From IMG/VR virus record IMGVR_UViG_3300010885_065123, positions 1 to 46,010 of that record: 46,010 nt of DNA. One strand, written 5' to 3'. Both the position numbers and the translations under genes were made by a program. Every line of letters starts with the position of its first letter. Positions within the stretch are counted from its first letter, which is position 1. The notes under the pieces are model-generated. The model ran no database searches and had not been told where the DNA came from. It saw nothing but the letters and a program-made list of their open reading frames with translations. Below, in pieces: positions 1-9,960 of the stretch. The stretch is from a virus.

Positions 1-1913
1 AGCCTGTTGCGGAATTCCGGAGTAAAGAACCTATTGATGGCCTGAGTATCTTCGTCCCTGTTATCGCTCTTGGTGAAACCTATCAGTTCTTTTTCCATCT
101 CAGCTGCGCCGAGATTGCTGGTGAATATCACGATAGCATTGCGTGCGCTAGCGCTCTTGCCTTGGCTGCTGGTGACCATGCCGTGATCCATCATGGCCAG
201 GAAAATGTTATAGACATCCGGATGTGCCTTTTCGATCTCGTCAAACAACAGCACACAGTGCGGATGAGTCTCCAGCTCGTTGATCAGCATGCCGCCGCCT
301 GCACCACCATCACCGTAACCAACGTAGCCCGGAGGTGATCCGATGAACTTGCTCACTGTGTGACGTTCTTGGAACTCACTCATGTCAAAACGCACGAAGT
401 GTACGCCCAGGCTCTTGGCCAACTGCTTGGCAACTTCTGTCTTGCCAACACCGCTGGGACCTGAGAACAGGAAGCTGCCCACGGTCTTGTCGCTTTCGCG
501 CAGCCCGCTCCGGCTCATGTATATGGCATTGACCACACCGTCGATGGCATCAGTCTGTCCAAATATCCTTGACCTCAGATCTGTGTCTAATAGCTCTAGC
601 TTATCGGCTTCCTTGCTCTTCACAGTGGTCACTGGCACCTTGGCAACCCTGCTGACTTCAGCTTCGACCATCTCCTTGGTGATCACTGTAGCACGCTCTG
701 TTTCTGGTTTGATGCGTTGCCATGCTGCAGCACTGTCTATGATATCAATGGCTTTATCTGGCAAGCATTTGTCATGTATGTGTCGCGATGTCAGATCAAC
801 AGCCGCATCCAAGGCTGCTGTTTCAAACTGCATTCCATAATATTCTTCGTAGTGCTTGGCAATGCCCTGCAGTATGCGCTTGCTGTCTTCAATGCTGGGT
901 TCAAAGATGTCCAGTTTTTGGAACCGCCTTACTAGGGCACGATCCTTTTCAAAATGCTTGCGATATTCTTCGTTGGTAGTGCTGCCTATGCAGCAAATTT
1001 CACCACGGCTAAGTGCAGGTTTCAGCATGTTGGCTGCATCAATGCTACCTCCGCCGCCGCCATTACCAGCACCCATGATCATGTGTATCTCGTCGATAAA
1101 CATGATGGTGTTAGGCAGTGCTGAGAATGCTGAGATTATCTGCTTCATCCTCTCTTCAAAATCACCCCTGAATTTGGTGCCTGCTACCAGAGTAGCAACG
1201 TCCAAATTCCAGATCACTTTGTCTAGCAGTATGTCAGGTACGTCGCCTTCCGTGATGCGGCGAGCCAGACCTTCAACTATCACTGTCTTGCCCACGCCCG
1301 GATCGCCTGTCATGATCACGTTGTGTTTGTTGCGCCGTGCTATGATCTGTGTGATCTGCTCAACTTCTTTTTCTCGACCTATCAGAGGATCTATCTTGCC
1401 ATCCTGTGCCTTGTCGTTTAGATTGATGCAGTACTGTTGCAGCACCTCTAGAGCCTGAGACTCGTCCATGCCGTTGGTAGTATCACTGTCGCCCTTGCTT
1501 AGGTACTCCAGTATCTTTTCTTTTGGTGGGGCATATTGCTCGATGAACCAGCTGGCTGGGCTATCTGGTATGTGATACAGCGCTAGGAATATGTCAGCTG
1601 GGCCAAGTTCCCTCCTACCGCTGAACATGCTCTGGGTCTTGGCTTTCTTGATCACGTTGCTGAGCAGAGTGGTGTGGCGAGGTTGGAAGCTGCCCTGTTT
1701 CACTATCACATGGTTGCTGTCAGTGTTTAGCCAATCGCTGGTATGAGAGATGAGGCTTTCCAGATCACCGCCTGCTTTGGTGATCATCTTCTGTATGCCT
1801 TCCATCTCCAGCAGCCCAGCCAGTAGATGCTCCAGGGTAACCAACTCGTGATTGAGATTGGCAGCCAATTGATATGAGCGCTGCATCGATTGCTCTATGG
1901 ACCCCATGGTCAT
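1..1913 (-). CDS. clpA: ClpA/ClpB-type AAA+ protein unfoldase, 3' end cut by window edge
   Basis: Two-ring AAA+ unfoldase that would unfold proteins and feed them to a ClpP peptidase. I translated this strand directly: 637 residues are visible and the C-terminal small domain lies off the left edge. A Clp_N-like repeat domain (about 1-60, with LVTLEHLLAGLL) comes first. The first ATPase module has Walker A GDPGVGKT at 203-210 and Walker B FIDEIH (D274/E275). The second has Walker A GPSGVGKT at 485-492, a GYVGY pore loop, Walker B LLFDEIE (D558) and the FTPEFRNR segment. No ClpB-type long middle domain separates the modules, and an IGF tripeptide sits at plus positions 75-83, where ClpA and ClpX carry the ClpP-docking loop, so ClpA-like is preferred over ClpB. 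The ATG at 1913 overlaps the deformylase stop (ATGA); a second ATG at 1907 is possible. No ClpP gene is in the window, so a host ClpP partner is inferred. Confidence 0.93.
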   Translation of the reverse strand, partial: MTMGSIEQSMQRSYQLAANLNHELVTLEHLLAGLLEMEGIQKMITKAGGDLESLISHTSDWLNTDSNHVIVKQGSFQPRHTTLLSNVIKKAKTQSMFSGRRELGPADIFLALYHIPDSPASWFIEQYAPPKEKILEYLSKGDSDTTNGMDESQALEVLQQYCINLNDKAQDGKIDPLIGREKEVEQITQIIARRNKHNVIMTGDPGVGKTVIVEGLARRITEGDVPDILLDKVIWNLDVATLVAGTKFRGDFEERMKQIISAFSALPNTIMFIDEIHMIMGAGNGGGGGSIDAANMLKPALSRGEICCIGSTTNEEYRKHFEKDRALVRRFQKLDIFEPSIEDSKRILQGIAKHYEEYYGMQFETAALDAAVDLTSRHIHDKCLPDKAIDIIDSAAAWQRIKPETERATVITKEMVEAEVSRVAKVPVTTVKSKEADKLELLDTDLRSRIFGQTDAIDGVVNAIYMSRSGLRESDKTVGSFLFSGPSGVGKTEVAKQLAKSLGVHFVRFDMSEFQERHTVSKFIGSPPGYVGYGDGGAGGGMLINELETHPHCVLLFDEIEKAHPDVYNIFLAMMDHGMVTSSQGKSASARNAIVIFTSNLGAAEMEKELIGFTKSDNRDEDTQAINRFFTPEFRNR

Positions 1914-2422
1914 GCTGCCACTCCTCGCTGCTGTTTCCTCTTGATCTTTTCCAGTTTTTTCTTGGCCATCATCAGCTTGACTGGACCAACCCTGTCATCG
2001 ATCATGATGCCCTGCAAGTGATCAAACTCGTGCAGGAAGATCCTGCTCCATCCTTCGCCCATATCAGTTACCTGCTGATTGCCGTCAGCATCTCTGAACA
2101 TGACCTTGATGTTCTTGCTGCGTCGTATGTTGAAACTTAGGCCCGGCAAGCTGAGACAACCTTCTATCTGCGTGTCCTGTTCATCGCCGGCACTCAACAC
2201 CACTGGATTGATGAACACATGCTTGTTGCCATCAACATTGACCACGAACAAGCTGATGCTGTGACCCAGCTGAGGCGCTGCGATACCCACTCCGCCGCTG
2301 GCAGCCAGAGTATCGAACATGTCCGCTATGAGACCTGCCAAACCTGGGATTTCTCCGGGTTCGATCAGCTTGGCCTGCTGCCTCAATACCGGATCAGGTC
2401 TCGTCACTATTGGCAATATCAT
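1910..2422 (-). CDS. def: Peptide deformylase
   Basis: Metalloenzyme that removes the N-formyl group from nascent proteins. All three family motifs are present in the 170-residue product: GVGIAAPQ (44-51), EGCLS (87-91, metal ligand Cys89) and HEFDH (131-135, metal ligands His131 and His135, catalytic Glu132). Length matches bacterial enzymes, and it keeps a lysine-rich C-terminal tail that many phage deformylases lack. Both ends overlap neighbours by four bases (ATGA): its ATG overlaps the DnaJ stop and its stop overlaps the ClpA start, so the three genes are probably translated together. Deformylases are known from marine phages, where they are thought to process proteins made fast during infection. 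All catalytic residues are intact, so activity is expected. Confidence 0.96.
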   Translation of the reverse strand: MILPIVTRPDPVLRQQAKLIEPGEIPGLAGLIADMFDTLAASGGVGIAAPQLGHSISLFVVNVDGNKHVFINPVVLSAGDEQDTQIEGCLSLPGLSFNIRRSKNIKVMFRDADGNQQVTDMGEGWSRIFLHEFDHLQGIMIDDRVGPVKLMMAKKKLEKIKRKQQRGVAA

Positions 2423-3318
2423 GGTCGATCTCCGCTGCGTTGTTTCTGTATTTCTCGTAGTAGATCTTGCTGTTGTGGTGATAGATTGTTTGGAACTTCT
2501 ATCTCTATATGGATGAACAAGTCTCCACGTTGACGAGCATTGTTATGAACCTGCATGCCGTGTCCCTGCACTCGCAGTGTGGCATTAGATTGCGTGCCAG
2601 CAGGTATGTTCACGTTCAACATGGCGCCGTCAATGCTCTTCAATTCATGCTGCAGTCCCAGCATGATAGATATGGCATCAACCTTGACGTTTGTGTGCAG
2701 ATGCGGACCGTTCCTGTTAAACGTGGCATGCTCATTTATGATCACTGTAACATAGAGATCGCCCGGTGGTTGGTTTGGTATGCTGCGATCACCGTGACCT
2801 TGGAAGCGCAACTTAGCACCGTGATCCACACCAGCTGGTATGCTCACGTTAACATTGGTATGCTGCCCGTTCACTTCGAACGCGATAGGCATGGTACGAC
2901 CAGTGAACGCATCCTCGAGGCTGATGTTGAGATTGAATTGGTAATCTCTGTTGCGCTGTATGTGCTGCCGTCCAAATCCCTGTCCAAAGAATTGGTTTAT
3001 TATATCATCGAAGTGCTGACCGCCACCAAAATTAAAGTGGAAATCTGCACCAGGGAATCCGCCGCCAAAGTTCTGTGCGAATGGGTTACCGCCTGGTCCG
3101 CCCTGTCCAAACTTGCGCTGTTGATCATAGGCAGCTCGCTTCTGAGGATCGCTCAGTGTGTCGTTGGCTTCATTGATCTGTTTGAACAACGCCTCTGATC
3201 CCGGATTTCCTTTGTTGAGATCGGGATGATGTTTTTTTGCTAAGCGCCTGTATGCAGACTTGATCTCGTCCTGCGACGCTGATTCTGATAGTTCGAGTGT
3301 CTTGTAATAATCTTCCAT
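2419..3318 (-). CDS. dnaJ: DnaJ/CbpA-type J-domain co-chaperone
   Basis: Class B Hsp40 co-chaperone expected to stimulate a DnaK ATPase and deliver substrates. The N-terminal J domain (1-65) has the essential HPD triad at 31-33. A Gly/Phe-rich linker (about 71-118) follows, then two beta-rich substrate-binding domains, each with an IPAG signature. No CxxCxGxG zinc fingers are present, so it resembles CbpA rather than DnaJ proper. The reading frame stays open upstream to 3411, but the residues before MEDYYKTLEL do not look like a J protein and overlap the promoter region of the divergent gene, so I start at the ATG at 3318 (299 residues). No strong Shine-Dalgarno site is visible. It is first in the DnaJ-deformylase-ClpA operon. 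No phage DnaK is in the window, so it may act on host DnaK. Confidence 0.93.
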   Translation of the reverse strand: MEDYYKTLELSESASQDEIKSAYRRLAKKHHPDLNKGNPGSEALFKQINEANDTLSDPQKRAAYDQQRKFGQGGPGGNPFAQNFGGGFPGADFHFNFGGGQHFDDIINQFFGQGFGRQHIQRNRDYQFNLNISLEDAFTGRTMPIAFEVNGQHTNVNVSIPAGVDHGAKLRFQGHGDRSIPNQPPGDLYVTVIINEHATFNRNGPHLHTNVKVDAISIMLGLQHELKSIDGAMLNVNIPAGTQSNATLRVQGHGMQVHNNARQRGDLFIHIEIEVPNNLSPQQQDLLREIQKQRSGDRP

Positions 3319-3368
3319 GTGCAAGTGTAACCTAGATCGTGACTCTGTGTCAATGCTGTTTTGGTGAC

Positions 3369-3376
3369 TATAAATA
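3369..3376 (+). promoter_or_regulatory. T4-type late promoter (TATAAATA)
   Basis: Exact match to the T4 late -10 box TATAAATA. It lies 42 bases before the TTG start at 3411, leaving room for a leader with the AAGGGG ribosome site. It may also drive the sugar cassette downstream, since only short gaps separate those genes. Confidence 0.7.
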
Positions 3377-3410
3377 AGCATTATCATTGGCATTTTCAAG
3401 GGGAACGGCA

Positions 3411-4100
3411 TTGGATCAGCAAAAACAGGCTACTATCGCCAAGGTTGTAGCAGACTATCTTGCCAAGACCAAGCCGGTCATGTTGTTGGTGCATGTGATA
3501 TACATTGCTGTGATCAGCACTATCTTCAGTGCGGCATATGTGATCAGTTTCCATTTCACTTCATTGGTAAGCATCTATGAGGAAGCGCACAGCATACAAA
3601 GCTTTGGAATGAACCTAAAGGTCAGCGTGGAAAATGACAATGCCATATACGCTAACCTCAATCGAATACTGTCGCAGTCTGGCGGAATCAGGGCCTATGT
3701 GTACCGATATCACAACGGTTTGGCAGCTATCAATGGTGTGCCATTCTTCTTCCAGACCATGACGCATGAAGTGATAGCACCCGGCACTCCGAGGATCATG
3801 ACCTTTGAACAGCGCATACCGGCCAGCATACACATAGCCATCAACAACGCATTCATCAACAATGCCTGTGCAATCATCAGGGACACCGACAGGGACAGGG
3901 AAAACCAAGATTACTATTTCTGGTTGAGCAGAGGTGCCAAGCATCTCATACGCTGCCCAATCTACATGACCAACGGTGATCTCTTTGGGTTCGTTGGAGT
4001 TGATTTCACATCCAGCATGATAGATGAATCCACAGCTGAAAAAAACATCAAGGAATCAGCAGGCGAGATAGCCAAACTATTTGCCACCAAAAAACTCTGA
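3411..4100 (+). CDS. Membrane-anchored protein with GAF-like domain
   Basis: Function unknown. The 229-residue product has a short charged N-terminus, one strongly hydrophobic segment (about 23-50) and a soluble domain with a YRYHNG segment and an alternating strand/helix pattern that resembles GAF sensor folds. The YxxHNG element is one I associate with phage GAF-like proteins; this is recollection, not a search. The frame opens at a TTG at 3387, but the TTG at 3411 has AAGGGG eight bases upstream and fits the TATAAATA promoter better, so I start there. No ATG is available near the N-terminus. It is divergent from the DnaJ operon. It could be an inner-membrane sensor or a lysis/lysis-inhibition accessory protein; neither is shown. 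Confidence 0.72.
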   Translation: MDQQKQATIAKVVADYLAKTKPVMLLVHVIYIAVISTIFSAAYVISFHFTSLVSIYEEAHSIQSFGMNLKVSVENDNAIYANLNRILSQSGGIRAYVYRYHNGLAAINGVPFFFQTMTHEVIAPGTPRIMTFEQRIPASIHIAINNAFINNACAIIRDTDRDRENQDYYFWLSRGAKHLIRCPIYMTNGDLFGFVGVDFTSSMIDESTAEKNIKESAGEIAKLFATKKL

Positions 4101-4152: not shown

Positions 4153-4485
4153 ATGAAACTGTTTGATATCGATCAATATATAGGTGGATGGTTCGTTGGC
4201 GATTTCGAACCCAGCATATGGCGCACCACAGCCTACGAGGTAGGCTACAAGTATCACGAAGCTGGAGAACCGTGGCCCACACACTATCACGAGCACATGG
4301 ATGAGCTGACCTTTCTATTGGAAGGTACAGTGATCATACAGGGACAAACTCTGACAGGTCCTGTAATTTTCGAACTGAACCGCCATGAGATTGCTGATCC
4401 TACTTTCGTGACAGCCTGCAAGATGTTCGTGATCAAATCGCCCAGCGTGCCAGGTGACAAGGTAGAGATCGAGGGCCAACCATGA
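4153..4485 (+). CDS. Cupin-like small protein
   Basis: Single-domain beta-barrel protein of 110 residues. The stretch around THYHEHMDELTFLLEGTV matches cupin motif 1 (HxH, an acidic residue, then G), giving a likely metal site from His and Glu side chains. The later FELNRHEIADP segment could supply the second half of the site. AGAGGTG just before the ATG is a good ribosome site. It overlaps the nucleotidyltransferase start by four bases (ATGA), which ties it to sugar-nucleotide chemistry; cupins in such clusters are often sugar epimerases or isomerases, but this one is shorter than an RmlC epimerase and may only bind a small molecule. A weak TTAAATAG motif at 4130-4137 lies just upstream. Confidence 0.75.
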   Translation: MKLFDIDQYIGGWFVGDFEPSIWRTTAYEVGYKYHEAGEPWPTHYHEHMDELTFLLEGTVIIQGQTLTGPVIFELNRHEIADPTFVTACKMFVIKSPSVPGDKVEIEGQP

Positions 4486-5585
4486 CAAACATATTGATCC
4501 CTATGGCAGGGCTTGGCAGCAGATTCAAAAAGACTCACGGTGCTTGCCCAAAACCTCTGATAGAGGTGGATGGATTAACCCTGATAGAACACAGCATCAA
4601 GAGCTTTGACGTTGATGGTAAGTTCATATTCGTTACCCGTAGGTTTGACGATCCCGCTGACAATGCGAGGCTGAGCCAGCTGCTGCAGTCATTGAGGCCA
4701 GACAGCATTGAGATATGCCTCGATACCATCACCGCAGGTGCCAGCCAAACCTGCTTGGCAGCCAGAGAATACATCAACAACGAGCAACCATTGGTCATAT
4801 ACAACTGTGATCAGATCATACGGTGGAATCCGCAGGACTTCCTTGCCTATGTAAACAGGCATCAATGCGATGGTGCAGTGGTGCTCTACAATAGCAGTGA
4901 TCCCAAGAACAGCTTTGCTGAGATCGTAGACGGTACCATAACCAAACTGGTAGAAAAGCAGGCCGTGAGCAATCACGCGCTGATTGGATTCCATTATTGG
5001 AAGCAGGGCAGTGATTTCGTGCGCAGTGCAGATAGCTTGATAGAGACTTTTCGTGTCAGTGGAAGGCCAGAGTGCTATGTCAGCGAGACCTATAATTTCT
5101 TGATAGATCAAGGCGCTTGCATCAAGCCCTACCACGTCACGGACAACATGTATATTCCTCTGGGCACACCAGAAGATGTGAACCGTTACATCGGCAAGGT
5201 CAAGGAGTTCTATACCAAGAAACCCAAGACCATATTCTGTGACATAGATGGCAGCATCTTGAAGCATGCGCATGTGGCCAGCGACGTGATCACCGGCACG
5301 CCTGTGCTGCTAGGAGGTGTGGCTGCTAAGTTTAACCAATGGGACAGCCAAGGTCACAGGATCATACTGGTCACTGCACGCAAGGAAAGCATGCGTGACA
5401 TAACCGTGCGCCACTTGCAGGAACTGGGATTGGTCTGGGATCAGCTGATCATGGGCGTGGGTGGCGGTGCACGCTATCTCATCAATGATAAACTGATAGA
5501 CACTGACGCAGATAGAGCAGTGGCAGTCAATGTGCTCACAGACGGTGGATTTGATAAGATCGACTGGAACGAGATTGATCTGTAA
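4482..5585 (+). CDS. Sugar nucleotidyltransferase fused to HAD-type phosphatase
   Basis: Bifunctional 367-residue protein. Residues 1-245 form an NTP-transferase domain: GLGSRF (10-15) is the nucleotide loop, KPL (24-26) the conserved Lys-Pro, and NCD (108-110) a likely metal/nucleotide site. Residues 248-367 form a HAD domain: DIDGS (254-258) carries the nucleophile Asp254 and acid/base Asp256, VTAR (297-300) is motif II, and IND (334-336) resembles the acidic motif IV. The likely role is activating a sugar or polyol phosphate with CTP or another NTP and hydrolysing a related phosphate. Similar fusions occur in bacterial capsule and surface-glycan clusters. The start overlaps the cupin stop (ATGA). 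Substrate is not evident from the sequence. Confidence 0.87.
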   Translation: MTNILIPMAGLGSRFKKTHGACPKPLIEVDGLTLIEHSIKSFDVDGKFIFVTRRFDDPADNARLSQLLQSLRPDSIEICLDTITAGASQTCLAAREYINNEQPLVIYNCDQIIRWNPQDFLAYVNRHQCDGAVVLYNSSDPKNSFAEIVDGTITKLVEKQAVSNHALIGFHYWKQGSDFVRSADSLIETFRVSGRPECYVSETYNFLIDQGACIKPYHVTDNMYIPLGTPEDVNRYIGKVKEFYTKKPKTIFCDIDGSILKHAHVASDVITGTPVLLGGVAAKFNQWDSQGHRIILVTARKESMRDITVRHLQELGLVWDQLIMGVGGGARYLINDKLIDTDADRAVAVNVLTDGGFDKIDWNEIDL

Positions 5586-5600
5586 CGGCGGTGATTGGGT

Positions 5601-6290
5601 ATGCGAGTTGCTCTTTGTTTCAGTGGACACACACGTTTCCTAACACAAACTCACAAATACTGGAAGTCAGTGGTCCTGGACCGATACTCTCCAGATGTGT
5701 TCGTGCATACTTGGTTGGATCCCAGCGATCTAGATAGATCAAGGAACGACGCACAGACCCTGCAGGATCTCTATGCGCCAACAGTGCTGGCCATGGAACT
5801 GCCTCGTAGTTTTCAAGGGGCTGATGATATCTACAAGGAACGTCTGTGGCCCTATAGGATCACGGTACAGGGGCAGCTTTCTCAGTTCACTGGCATAAAG
5901 ATGGCACAAGCGCTGCGCCGCAACTACGAAACTGCTCAGGGATTTAGATATGATATATCCATGAGAGCTAGATTTGATTGGTATTTAGAGAGATTGGATC
6001 TTGAAGTGAACGATAGCATCAACGTGCCTGATGTGCCAACCCTATACAATCATAGATTCACCTATCGAGGACAATCACATGTGGGCATCTGTGATCAATT
6101 CGCGTTTGGCAGATCAGAGCTGATGGATGTCTATGCAGGTATAGTTGATAACATACCAAATCTCTATCATGACTGCGGTGTGGATTTTTGCGGTGAACTT
6201 TTCACCAAAGGGCATCTCCTAGATAAGGGGATAGATGTCAAGCAGCATCTAATGGGTAACGGCATAGTGAGGACGACGGGGCTGATATGA
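5601..6290 (+). CDS. Glycosyltransferase-like protein
   Basis: Product of 229 residues beginning MRVALCFSGHTR, with DVFVHTW and an R-x-R-x-D element (RARFDWYLERLD). I associate this pattern with glycosyltransferase-like proteins in phages and bacterial glycan clusters, but I cannot place it in a named family with certainty. Near the C-terminus it keeps an acidic/aromatic patch (DQFAFGRSELMDVY) reminiscent of the acceptor side of such enzymes. The frame opens at a TTG at 5595, but the ATG at 5601 starts the conserved segment directly and is preferred. Its stop overlaps the GDPD-like start (ATGA). Its place between a nucleotidyltransferase and GT2 enzymes supports a glycan role. Confidence 0.68.
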   Translation: MRVALCFSGHTRFLTQTHKYWKSVVLDRYSPDVFVHTWLDPSDLDRSRNDAQTLQDLYAPTVLAMELPRSFQGADDIYKERLWPYRITVQGQLSQFTGIKMAQALRRNYETAQGFRYDISMRARFDWYLERLDLEVNDSINVPDVPTLYNHRFTYRGQSHVGICDQFAFGRSELMDVYAGIVDNIPNLYHDCGVDFCGELFTKGHLLDKGIDVKQHLMGNGIVRTTGLI

Positions 6291-6757
6291 TCATAATTGC
6301 GCACAGAGGTTTGTTGGATGGACCAGACGACAGACAGGACAATCATCCAGATAGCATATACGACTGCCTGGCACTGGGATTCCATGTTGAAATTGATCTA
6401 TGGCGCATAGATCGCACATGGATGCTGGGCCACGACGGTCCTAGATACATCATCACCGAGGATTTCATCAAGCAGGACTATCTATGGATACATGCCAAGA
6501 ATCCAGAGGCGGCTGCAGAACTTTCGGTGCTGCATCAGAGTCATCCAAATCTAAACTTCTTTTGGCATCAGCACGATGATAGAGTGCTGACCAGCCGAGG
6601 ATTTTGGTGGACTGAACCCGGTCATCACCTGTTGCACAACAGCATCGCAGTGTTACCAGAGATGATATTGGGTGCCGATAATCTCAGTGAATGTGCCAAG
6701 TGGACTGCTGCGGGCGTGTGCAGCGATTATGGTAATCTGTTGAGGAATCTGCTGTGA
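6287..6757 (+). CDS. Short glycerophosphodiester phosphodiesterase-like protein
   Basis: TIM-barrel phosphodiesterase-like protein of 156 residues. The GDPD signature is present: His6-Arg7 in AHRG, then VEIDLW with Glu35 and Asp37 (metal ligands), then LGHDG with His49 (catalytic acid/base). The usual ENT after the first histidine is replaced by NHPDS. It is much shorter than typical GDPD enzymes (about 240-300 residues), so part of the barrel is reduced or it belongs to a short branch. The catalytic set looks intact. In this cassette it might act on a glycerophosphate-type substituent on a surface polymer rather than on lipid head groups; that is inference. The start overlaps the preceding stop (ATGA), and the stop overlaps the next gene (GTGA). 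Confidence 0.8.
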   Translation: MIIIAHRGLLDGPDDRQDNHPDSIYDCLALGFHVEIDLWRIDRTWMLGHDGPRYIITEDFIKQDYLWIHAKNPEAAAELSVLHQSHPNLNFFWHQHDDRVLTSRGFWWTEPGHHLLHNSIAVLPEMILGADNLSECAKWTAAGVCSDYGNLLRNLL

Positions 6758-7809
6758 AGATAGCAGTCTATGCCTTGGCAATGAATGATGCAGAATCTGT
6801 TGATAGATGGATACGCAACACCAGGGATGCTGATTATTTGGTGGTAGCTGATCTTGGCAGCACCGATGGAACTGTACAAGCTCTACGAGCAAACAGTGTG
6901 ATAGCAGACCCTATAGGACCTGCTGGTACGCGATTTGATACGGCCAGGAATGCAGCCATGGACAGGATTCCTTTGGATGCAGATGTGTGCGTGAGCATGG
7001 ATATGCATGCACAGATGAGCAGTGAATGGCGAGCAGAGATAGAGAGCTGCTGGTCAGCTGGTGCCACACGCATGCGTTACACATATATGACTCATCGCAG
7101 CGATGGCAGGGCTGAAAGACAGCACAGATCGGATCACATACATGCCAGATTGGGCTACAGCTGGGTTGGTCCCGCATGTGAGACCTTGGTTGCCACGGGC
7201 GAGGAAACCGTGATAGCAGCGAGAGGATTGACCATGCTTGGCCTAGCACCTACTGTCAAATATGGGCTAGAACATCTGCCATTGCTGCAGCTGGGACATC
7301 GGGAAGATCCCAGCAGTGCTGATATGCTGTTTTGTCTGGCCAGAGAATATGCACAGAACAATCTGCGCGAAGAAGCAGTTGAACATTTCAAGAAGTATCT
7401 GGATCTGGCATCTGCTACGTGGCCAGATCAACGCAGCGAGGCAATGATATGGTTGAGCAGGCTCATGCCACACGACAGGCTGAGATGGCTGAGATCTAGC
7501 ATAGCAGAAGCGCCTCTGCGCCGAGAGGCTTGGATACAGCTAGCTGATTATTTCTATGAAAAGAATGAATGGGCTAATCTCTATGCTGCCGCACTCGATG
7601 GGTGTAACAGTGCTCGCAATAGCAGCAATCAATTTGATGGCCCGGCTGGGTCAGATGCCAAGCTCTGGGATCTAGCAGGACTTGGGGCATGGAACATCGG
7701 TTTAAAGCCTGAGAGCCTTGATCTTTTTGCTGAGGCTCATCGATTAGAACCAGATAACCACCGTATAACTAACAACTACAACACAGTCAAAGCTGTGGTT
7801 AAAGGATGA
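6754..7809 (+). CDS. GT2 glycosyltransferase paralogue A, altered active site
   Basis: First of three tandem paralogues (351 residues). The GT-A fold N-terminus begins MKIAVYALAMN and has the nucleotide-sugar segment LGSTDGT (34-40). The metal-binding DxD seen in its two neighbours at 83-85 reads D-M-H here, and the downstream P-V/T-H-E element reads P-A-C-E. Both changes hit expected catalytic positions, so this copy may be inactive, metal-independent or have a different donor. The C-terminal half holds helix pairs (EDPSSADMLFCLAREYAQNN, then EEAVEHFKKYLDL) like TPR repeats, a layout also found in peptide glycosyltransferases such as SunS. The start is GTG, overlapping the GDPD-like stop. 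Confidence 0.83.
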   Translation: MKIAVYALAMNDAESVDRWIRNTRDADYLVVADLGSTDGTVQALRANSVIADPIGPAGTRFDTARNAAMDRIPLDADVCVSMDMHAQMSSEWRAEIESCWSAGATRMRYTYMTHRSDGRAERQHRSDHIHARLGYSWVGPACETLVATGEETVIAARGLTMLGLAPTVKYGLEHLPLLQLGHREDPSSADMLFCLAREYAQNNLREEAVEHFKKYLDLASATWPDQRSEAMIWLSRLMPHDRLRWLRSSIAEAPLRREAWIQLADYFYEKNEWANLYAAALDGCNSARNSSNQFDGPAGSDAKLWDLAGLGAWNIGLKPESLDLFAEAHRLEPDNHRITNNYNTVKAVVKG

Positions 7810-7816
7810 TAGCCTC

Positions 7817-8890
7817 ATGAAAATTGCAGTTTACACCATAGCCCTAAATGAGATACGGCACTGTGAGCGCTGGGCTCAGAGCGTAGCAGATGCTGATTAT
7901 CGGGTTGTTCTGGATACAGGTAGCACTGATGGTACCGTTGAGAAACTCAGAGAACTTGGTGTAACAGTGTTCGAGGAGAAGTTTGATCCATGGCGATTTG
8001 ATCATGCACGCAATGCTGCTTTAGCTTGCGTACCAATCGATGCTGATATCTGCATCAGCCAGGACATGGATGAGTTCCTCGCTGATGGTTGGCGACCCAA
8101 GATGGAAGCAGCTTGGCGCGTAGGCGAGACCACCAGATTGGCCTACACATATGTGTTTGATTACAGGGACGGTGGTCCCAATGATGGTTATCGCATGGAC
8201 AAGGTACATGCTAGGATAGGCTATCAATGGAAGCGGCCTGTGCATGAGACCGTGTTCAGCACAGTTGGATTCGAAAACATAGCCGAAGATCTCTCCATCA
8301 TACTTAACCAGATACAGGATCGCAGCAAGGGCACCCGCGGCAATTATCTGCCCCTGATGGCAATGGCCACAGCTGAAGATCCGAGCGATAGCCAGCTCAG
8401 CTTTTGGTATGGTCGAGAGCTGATGTATGCCAACAAGCATGCAGAGGCTGTGGCTGAACTAAATCGTTATCTGGATCTCGAGACCAGCAAGTGGCCCATA
8501 GAGCGTTCAGAAGCCATGATATACATCAGCCGCATGGTTGACAATCGCAAGCTAGAATACATCCAGCGTGCCTTGATATGCAGCCCAGAACGTCGCCAGG
8601 TGTGGCTGGAGCTGGCTCGTTATTATTACAATAACCAAGACTGGCATGGGCTGTTATGGGCAGCTGGCTCTGGTATAGAAAAGAGCCGCAGGGACAATAG
8701 CTATCTGGACAGCGCTGATGCCTGGGGCAATCAGCTATTGGATTTTGGTAGCATAGCAGCTGCAAACTTAAATTGGTATGATAGAGCAGCAGACTGGTGC
8801 CAACAGGCGATAAACATGCAGCCTACAGACGAACGATTACTCAGCAATCTGCAGTGGATGCAGGGCAAGATCAAGGAACGGAACAGATGA
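7817..8890 (+). CDS. GT2 glycosyltransferase paralogue B with TPR-like tail
   Basis: Second tandem paralogue (357 residues). It starts MKIAVYTIALNE and carries TGSTDGT (34-40), a complete DMD metal motif (83-85, within QDMDEFL) and a P-V-H-E element (His143-Glu144) expected to help catalysis. The C-terminal half has repeated amphipathic helix pairs, for example FWYGRELMYANKHAEAVAEL and VWLELARYYYNNQDW, typical of TPR or related solenoids that hold an acceptor. AGGA lies about nine bases before the ATG. Its stop overlaps the start of paralogue C (ATGA). Donor sugar and acceptor are unknown; the acceptor could be a host glycan or a protein. Confidence 0.87.
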   Translation: MKIAVYTIALNEIRHCERWAQSVADADYRVVLDTGSTDGTVEKLRELGVTVFEEKFDPWRFDHARNAALACVPIDADICISQDMDEFLADGWRPKMEAAWRVGETTRLAYTYVFDYRDGGPNDGYRMDKVHARIGYQWKRPVHETVFSTVGFENIAEDLSIILNQIQDRSKGTRGNYLPLMAMATAEDPSDSQLSFWYGRELMYANKHAEAVAELNRYLDLETSKWPIERSEAMIYISRMVDNRKLEYIQRALICSPERRQVWLELARYYYNNQDWHGLLWAAGSGIEKSRRDNSYLDSADAWGNQLLDFGSIAAANLNWYDRAADWCQQAINMQPTDERLLSNLQWMQGKIKERNR

Positions 8891-9960
8891 AGATCGCAAT
8901 TTATGGACCAACCAAGAACCAAGTACACCATGTTGATGCTTGGTATGAGAGCTGCAAGGACGCTGATATTATCTGCGTCGCAGACACTGGCAGCACTGAC
9001 GGTACCAAGGAACGCATGCTGGCGCTTGGAGTGAAAGTAACAGACGTGCGCATCATGCCTTGGCGTTTTGATGATGCATTCAACACGGCCATGTATCTGG
9101 TACCTGATGACATAGACGTTTGCATACGACTAGACACCGATGAACGCCTAGTAGAAGGATGGCGTGCAGCACTAGAGGCCGCATGGACAGCTGAAACCAC
9201 ACGCTTGCGATATCCCTATATATGGAATTGGAACGACGACGGTACCCCTGGCAGGCAGTGGTATGGTGATCGCATACATGCACGCAAAGGCTATCGTTGG
9301 ATGGGTGCCACGCACGAAGGACTGTGCTCGAGGTTACCAGAAATACAGACATTTACCGACAATGTTAAGATACATCATTTCCCCGACATCAAGAGCAAGA
9401 GCGGAGATCTCGCACTGCTAGAAGAAAGCGTCAAGGAATGGCCACAAGATTCGAGGATACGTGCATATCTTGCCAGAGAATACATGTATCAGCGCCAGTT
9501 TGACAAGGCTGCCGAAACCTACAAGGAATTCCTGGGCATGAGCTACGACACTGTTGAACGCTGCCAGGCCATGACATCGTTGGCCCAGGCTGAGCCTGAC
9601 AACAAGATTTTTTGGTTGAAGCAAGCAGCCTATGAAGTACCAACTCACAGGGAACCTTTGGTTAATCTAGCACAGCACTATTATGAGACTAGCAACTGGA
9701 AACAGTGTTATGATTATGCCAAGAAAGCGTTGAAGATAACCAAACATCCCATGGATTATACCTGCACGCCAGAAGCCTGGGGCTGGCAACCTCATGACTT
9801 GCTAAGCATTGCTGCCTGGAATCTCAAGCTGTACAAGGAAAGTGCTGAACAGGCCAAGCTGGCCTGCGACGCTGCACCAAATGATAACAGGCTACAGAAC
9901 AATCTTAAATTGATCACTGACTTCATGGCCAAAAATCTAAGCCAGGACACTGACCAATAA
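8887..9960 (+). CDS. GT2 glycosyltransferase paralogue C with TPR-like tail
   Basis: Third tandem paralogue (357 residues). It starts MKIAIYGPTKNQ, with TGSTDGT (34-40), DTD (83-85, within LDTDERL) and A-T-H-E (His143-Glu144), so the catalytic set is complete. The helical tail includes RAYLAREYMYQRQFDKAAET and LVNLAQHYYETSNW. The frame stays open back to 8797, but that extension lies inside paralogue B; the ATG at 8887 overlaps the stop of B (ATGA) and aligns exactly with the N-termini of A and B. It ends the coupled sugar cassette; a late-promoter-like motif overlaps its stop codon. Confidence 0.87.
   Translation: MKIAIYGPTKNQVHHVDAWYESCKDADIICVADTGSTDGTKERMLALGVKVTDVRIMPWRFDDAFNTAMYLVPDDIDVCIRLDTDERLVEGWRAALEAAWTAETTRLRYPYIWNWNDDGTPGRQWYGDRIHARKGYRWMGATHEGLCSRLPEIQTFTDNVKIHHFPDIKSKSGDLALLEESVKEWPQDSRIRAYLAREYMYQRQFDKAAETYKEFLGMSYDTVERCQAMTSLAQAEPDNKIFWLKQAAYEVPTHREPLVNLAQHYYETSNWKQCYDYAKKALKITKHPMDYTCTPEAWGWQPHDLLSIAAWNLKLYKESAEQAKLACDAAPNDNRLQNNLKLITDFMAKNLSQDTDQ

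Follow-up and report, generated by a model that had tools for sequence, protein, structure and literature searches.

The 46,010-base stretch of DNA examined here (the window) is the entire IMG/VR virus record IMGVR_UViG_3300010885_065123. Its left end carries three minus-strand open reading frames (ORFs), dnaJ, def, and clpA, which encode a predicted co-chaperone, peptide deformylase (PDF), and protein unfoldase (Table 1). As the original prediction held, the three genes run in the same direction, are joined by two 4-base overlaps, and have all of their catalytic motifs intact: the HPD of the J-domain, the PDF active-site motifs, and, in ClpA, two Walker A motifs, two pore loops, arginine fingers, and an IGF ClpP loop. 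Purifying selection acts on all three genes, with ratios of nonsynonymous to synonymous substitution rates of ~0.06-0.14 where synonymous sites were unsaturated (several comparisons were saturated).

Table 1. Features of the dnaJ-def-clpA block, its flank, and the second gene cluster of relatives
Feature	Position	Strand	Description
clpA	3..1913	-	Predicted Hsp100 class-I unfoldase, 637 aa, cut by record end
IGF tripeptide	75..83	-	ClpP-docking loop of ClpA, inside window; from aligned ClpAs
Walker A, D2 of ClpA	438-461		GPSGVGKT
Walker A, D1 of ClpA	1284-1307		GDPGVGKT
def stop/clpA start overlap	1910..1913	-	4-base ATGA; from sequence
def	1910..2422	-	Predicted peptide deformylase, 170 aa, complete active site
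PDF motif	2018-2032		HEFDH
PDF motif	2150-2164		EGCLS
PDF motif	2270-2293		GVGIAAPQ
dnaJ stop/def start overlap	2419..2422	-	4-base ATGA; from sequence
dnaJ	2419..3318	-	Predicted class-B (CbpA-like) J-domain co-chaperone, 299 aa, first gene in cassette
HPD of J-domain	3220-3228
Divergent intergenic region	3319..3410	.	dnaJ to holin-like gene; position only
Predicted holin-T-like gene	3411..4100	+	Alternative start 3387; divergent from dnaJ
clpX-hsp20-clpS-[cyclophilin]-dnaK cluster or parts	L117:6770-13467		Relative
Same	L118:6436-15468		Relative
Same	L119:8252-10996		Relative
Same	L120:7941-10673		Relative
Same	L126:3413-7552		Relative

The dnaJ product starts MEDYYK, and its ORF could open at 3411. 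It matched the Pfam domains DnaJ (3.5e-25) and DnaJ_C (4.8e-38) and, over its full length, DnaJ 2 in the PDB (3.5e-40). Its HPD is invariant across 15 aligned relatives. A canonical class A identity was rejected because it requires four CxxCxG zinc motifs, and a motif search of the window DnaJ found none; with the HPD, a C-terminal substrate-binding domain, and no zinc finger, the protein is predicted to be class B. The def product matched Pep_deformylase (2.4e-40) and PDB 1lme (2e-29) and is a predicted peptide deformylase in which the GxGxAAxQ, EGCLS, and HExDH motifs are all kept.

The window ClpA matched Pfam AAA_2 (1.8e-50), together with AAA_lid_9 and Clp_N (1.8e-5; 25.2 bits, threshold 20.7), and PHROG family phrog_4871 (2.7e-210). 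The original prediction raised the concern that this copy might be truncated or inactive past the window edge. Truncation was rejected: sister contig L019, which overlaps window positions 1-2210 at 97.1% nucleotide identity, completes clpA without a break, so that the interruption is simply the record end. The completed protein, at 761 aa, matched Escherichia coli ClpA at 6e-197. The ClpP loop was present as [IVL]G[FM] in 64 of 64 distinct aligned ClpAs. The two Walker A motifs are 282 residues apart, compared with 280 in Acinetobacter ClpA (spacing was checked in six of the 64 aligned proteins); a spacing like that of bacterial ClpA indicates that the ClpB/ClpC-type middle domain (M-domain) is missing. 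A ClpB-like disaggregase was thus rejected, the M-domain being absent and the ClpP loop present, and the product is predicted to be a ClpA-type unfoldase. PhoH labels that coincided with ClpA were disregarded because the iterated PhoH profile had drifted onto ClpA.

E. coli ClpA (PDB 1ksf) was a full-length match and, like the phage protein, has two AAA+ rings, a ClpP loop, and no M-domain; it differs in its loop (IGL rather than IGF), and the match of the phage N-domain was weak. Gene neighborhoods also differ, since phage clpA neighbors dnaJ or def, whereas the Acinetobacter reference has clpS-clpA. The records that served as this cellular reference, CAKLQF02/CAKLQH02 (Acinetobacter phage MD-2021a), are labeled phage; they are evidently bacterial chromosome (argC, ilvA, clpS-clpA) and constitute a contamination trap when phage genes are counted.

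The order dnaJ-[def]-clpA proved to be conserved in phage genomes. A ClpA-seeded scan of IMG/VR returned 79 loci; in 74, clpA was immediately preceded by dnaJ. Contig ends cut four of the remaining five, and among the 75 testable loci the upstream dnaJ was truly absent only from L083. The def gene lay between dnaJ and clpA in 34 of the 79. Scans seeded with DnaJ or PDF, independent of ClpA but built from cassette members, placed clpA after dnaJ in 78 of the 80 best viral loci (58 of them with def too) and clpA adjoining def in 30 of 80 loci; scans of close relatives using PDF or DnaJ alone gave one locus each. In the cellular control, DnaJ was near Clp in 1 of 80 loci, a rough comparison because that scan brought mostly ClpC/ClpB-type Bacilli loci. 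Because the cassette order is conserved over deep phage clades, compared with 1/80 cellular Clp loci, it exceeds chance. The original prediction regarded such a trio as unusual in a phage, which the 58 loci contradict. An arrangement unique to this contig was likewise rejected, as the order also occurs in Sinorhizobium phage Phosso and many IMG/VR loci.

The ClpA tree placed the dnaJ-clpA pair in several deep clades, and the presence of def required at least 6 changes. Distances among DnaJ proteins were correlated with those among ClpA proteins (Mantel r = 0.86), as were PDF distances (Mantel r = 0.94); in both tests 0 of 2,000 permutations were as high. These correlations indicate that DnaJ and PDF are co-inherited with ClpA. 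Across 26 related records, all nine deformylases found sat in the dnaJ-clpA slot. A single origin of the cassette deformylases was tentatively rejected, as a one-clade tree was disfavored (approximately unbiased test, P = 0.018) in a quick analysis with long branches and 173 alignment columns. This hints that the cassette PDFs fall into more than one clade and that def may have entered or left the cassette repeatedly.

The overlaps themselves carry less weight than was originally assigned to them. At least 8 of the 23 co-directional neighbor pairs called in the window have 4-base junctions, dnaJ/def and def/clpA included (the junction script counted 7/23, dnaJ/def among them, and def/clpA, missed at the record edge, was added). 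We therefore rejected the ATGA overlaps as a sign of shared function; they are a habit of this phage genome and not special evidence. Coupling of the three genes is supported instead by the conservation of their order.

Beyond clpA, a gene for a virion protein of the phrog_13657/14467 type was found downstream in 57 of 61 loci. In L019, the phrog_13657 gene lies ~600 bases past clpA, a site that would lie beyond the window edge. The conserved domain of the virion-type protein has a predicted all-beta fold resembling viral structural and collagen-repeat proteins. The next genes encode collagen-like tail-fiber proteins in the window's clade, in Phosso, and in Agrobacterium phage Atu_ph07. Lysis genes lie on the other side: in another clade, a GH19 endolysin and a holin with three transmembrane segments are encoded upstream of the cassette, and the window has a predicted holin-T-like gene that is kept beside dnaJ in L006-L010, L012, L020, L021, and L026. 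The product of this gene has a predicted N-terminal membrane helix and GAF-like domain, and its predicted fold matched T4 holin T (6pxe/6psk, ~3e-5) as well as many GAF domains, making it a candidate for an unannotated holin family in jumbo phages. Judged from its position, the divergent region between this gene and dnaJ likely contains a promoter from which the cassette would be co-transcribed. Because lysis genes flank one side and tail genes the other, we propose that expression is late.

Relatives carry further proteostasis genes. ClpP was present in 13, ClpS in 12, and DnaK in 4 of 26 related records, and Hsp20 in 10 of 21; these counts are lower bounds, as many records are fragmentary. 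The closest large relative, G003 (518 kb, terminase present), encodes ClpP, ClpS, and DnaK, with clpX, hsp20, clpS, cyclophilin, and dnaK on one strand within ~7 kb and clpP elsewhere. Sets overlapping this cluster occur in G004, G013, G014, G018, and G023. Alignments of the phage proteins cover the regions of ClpP around its catalytic serine, histidine, and aspartate and the NDD and histidine positions of ClpS, the signature of the N-degron pocket. GrpE was not found in the related records searched, which means that this nucleotide-exchange factor would need to come from the host. No L/F-transferase was found in any record searched, and a complete phage N-end-rule pathway was rejected for that reason. 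A heme-oxygenase family gene directly adjoins clpS in two relatives (L119:7719-8255 and L120:7395-7931, minus strand), a call that rests on a Pfam match in L119 and a similar sequence start in L120.

Among named phages, Phosso (PV764938.1, 469 kb) is the closest parallel. Its genes 193-195 encode a DnaJ-like protein, a deformylase, and a Clp ATPase in the order and strand of the window, its ClpA is ~48% identical to the window ClpA, and it also encodes ClpP, ClpS, and Hsp20. It differs in having a gap between dnaJ and def instead of an overlap, two small genes upstream, and thymidylate synthase and dihydrofolate reductase genes between clpA and the virion-type gene, which is slightly further off. 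In Atu_ph07 (NC_042013.1), dnaJ lies directly upstream of clpA (gp293-gp292), followed by a phrog_13657 protein and then a tail fiber gene; a deformylase was looked for in this record and not found. The portion of the Atu_ph07 report available to us describes its ClpX, ClpP, and ClpS and does not present dnaJ-clpA as a unit (PMC6102473). Rak2-like phages (e.g., PBECO4) have a ClpA of the same family near structural genes, and a Rak2-like genome contains ClpP and a weak ClpS match. Their ClpA is ~38% identical to that of the window, has the loop IGM, and has neither dnaJ nor def beside it.

Taken together, these results lead us to favor, with moderate confidence, a vertically inherited jumbo-phage proteostasis cassette that serves mainly to fold or clear collagen-like fibers and other late proteins. 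Since dnaJ-[def]-clpA turns up beside tail-fiber genes in many giant phages that are only distantly related, it is probably a toolkit that phages dedicate to producing viral proteins and controlling their quality. In such a scheme, the class-B DnaJ would hand clients to an Hsp70, either phage or host DnaK, and PDF would deformylate nascent phage chains when the host enzyme cannot keep pace with their synthesis. ClpA would unfold or extract chains that had folded or assembled wrongly and use its IGF loop to pass them to ClpP, which may be phage-encoded (as in relatives) or the host's. Expression would be late, with very large collagen-like fibers and other late proteins as the main clients. From position and family knowledge, the giant fiber-like proteins in the window (up to 3,830 residues) are plausible clients.

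The choice of partners bears on a further suggestion of the original prediction, that the cassette adapts host DnaK and ClpP. This is incomplete, in that relatives encode their own ClpP, ClpS, and DnaK, although GrpE would indeed have to come from the host. Because relatives, G003 among them, encode these proteins, a phage-encoded partner is at least as likely as a host partner. For the window's own phage, seen as the 46-kb window and a 62-kb sister contig, we infer ClpP, ClpS, and DnaK from relatives. We also tentatively consider a wider proposal, that a large group of jumbo phages possess a proteostasis network that is nearly complete in itself and is spread over two or three conserved loci (dnaJ-[def]-clpA; clpX-hsp20-clpS-[dnaK]; clpP), a dedicated ClpAP/ClpXP and DnaK/J system that would oversee virion assembly largely without recourse to the quality control of the host. 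Only GrpE and ribosomes would then come from the host.

Several observations weigh against a fiber-directed cassette. About half of the cassettes lack def, which is thus dispensable; the huge phages LR756500 and LR756508 carry dnaJ without clpA nearby; and Rak2-type phages have clpA without an adjoining dnaJ. ClpP, ClpS, and DnaK are absent from the 62-kb sister contig, as is Hsp20 (the only one of the four searched for in the window itself), an absence that is expected if these genes lie far off. The predicted fold of the virion-type protein matches solved structures only weakly, and a structural-gene neighborhood does not prove virion clients.

The same genes could instead act on the host. 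Phage ClpA, with ClpS or ClpP, might turn proteolysis on host or antiphage proteins, and phage DnaJ might compete for host DnaK or serve as a decoy for DnaJ-sensing defense. The ClpS adaptors and ClpP of relatives could retarget proteolysis in this way, and one report cites both an NLR-like defense, bNACHT25, that requires DnaJ and a J-protein of phage RB43 that binds DnaK (PMC12619734). However, the cassette adjoins lysis and tail genes rather than an early region, and it is kept in diverse phages under purifying selection, without rapid turnover; we consider host takeover unlikely. Since relatives encode more machinery and clpA borders virion genes, a late role in virion biogenesis and quality control is favored over it. 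General stress buffering, in which extra chaperone, deformylase, and unfoldase capacity helps the host survive a long infection and no clients are special, would fit the broad proteostasis set of relatives, including Hsp20, cyclophilin, and DnaK, and was suggested for Atu_ph07 (PMC6102473). It leaves the conserved link to a virion-protein gene unexplained, and we regard it as improbable. A narrower idea is that PDF and ClpA(S)P share chains, with deformylation status or N-degrons choosing ClpAP targets. The position of def between dnaJ and clpA, where all PDFs in the 26 records lie, would suit such control, as would the pocket signature of phage ClpS and the proposal that formyl-Met is a degradation signal (PMC4745127). 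With def missing from so many cassettes and L/F-transferase from every record, it is very unlikely. The favored reading, a cassette for fibers and other late virion proteins, keeps the fiber-folding idea of the original prediction, which gains support from the virion and tail-fiber genes that border the cassette in most clades. As a whole, the original interpretation is partly supported.

Individual reports exist of jumbo-phage ClpA, ClpX, ClpP, ClpS, and DnaJ (PMC7824862 and PMC6102473), and a deformylase has been reported in huge phages (PMC7162821). In moraphages, ClpA belongs to the core orthologous groups, with DnaJ and DnaK in some; the accessible part of that report does not mention deformylase or describe gene order (PMC12619734). 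In the open-access library searched, supplementary tables aside, we found neither the dnaJ-[def]-clpA cassette nor its association with virion genes described, and likewise no account of the clpX-hsp20-clpS-dnaK cluster. The chaperone and Clp genes of jumbo phages have so far been catalogued singly and for the most part treated as sporadic accessories. A conserved cassette at virion genes, together with the ClpP, ClpS, ClpX, Hsp20, and DnaK of relatives, makes them a testable system and raises the question of whether a virus that builds giant particles comes with protein quality control of its own. Because both Phosso and Atu_ph07 exist in culture, this question can be tested now.

Other genes deserve mention. 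A 112-aa small gene at L019:2580-2918 (plus strand) has a 4-base overlap with the clpA end and no PHROG match; genes of similar size occur in L008, L012, L020, and L021, and it is a possible fourth cassette member. In the window, positions 13354-45776 (plus strand) encode very large fiber-like proteins of 1403, 2100, 3830, 1091, and 1287 aa, and the 2100-aa protein combines collagen repeats with an S74 chaperone domain. Positions 4482-9960 (plus strand) encode a nucleotidyltransferase/HAD-like protein and several glycosyltransferase- or TPR-like proteins, with further 4-base overlaps, and this cluster perhaps serves the sugar decoration of fibers.

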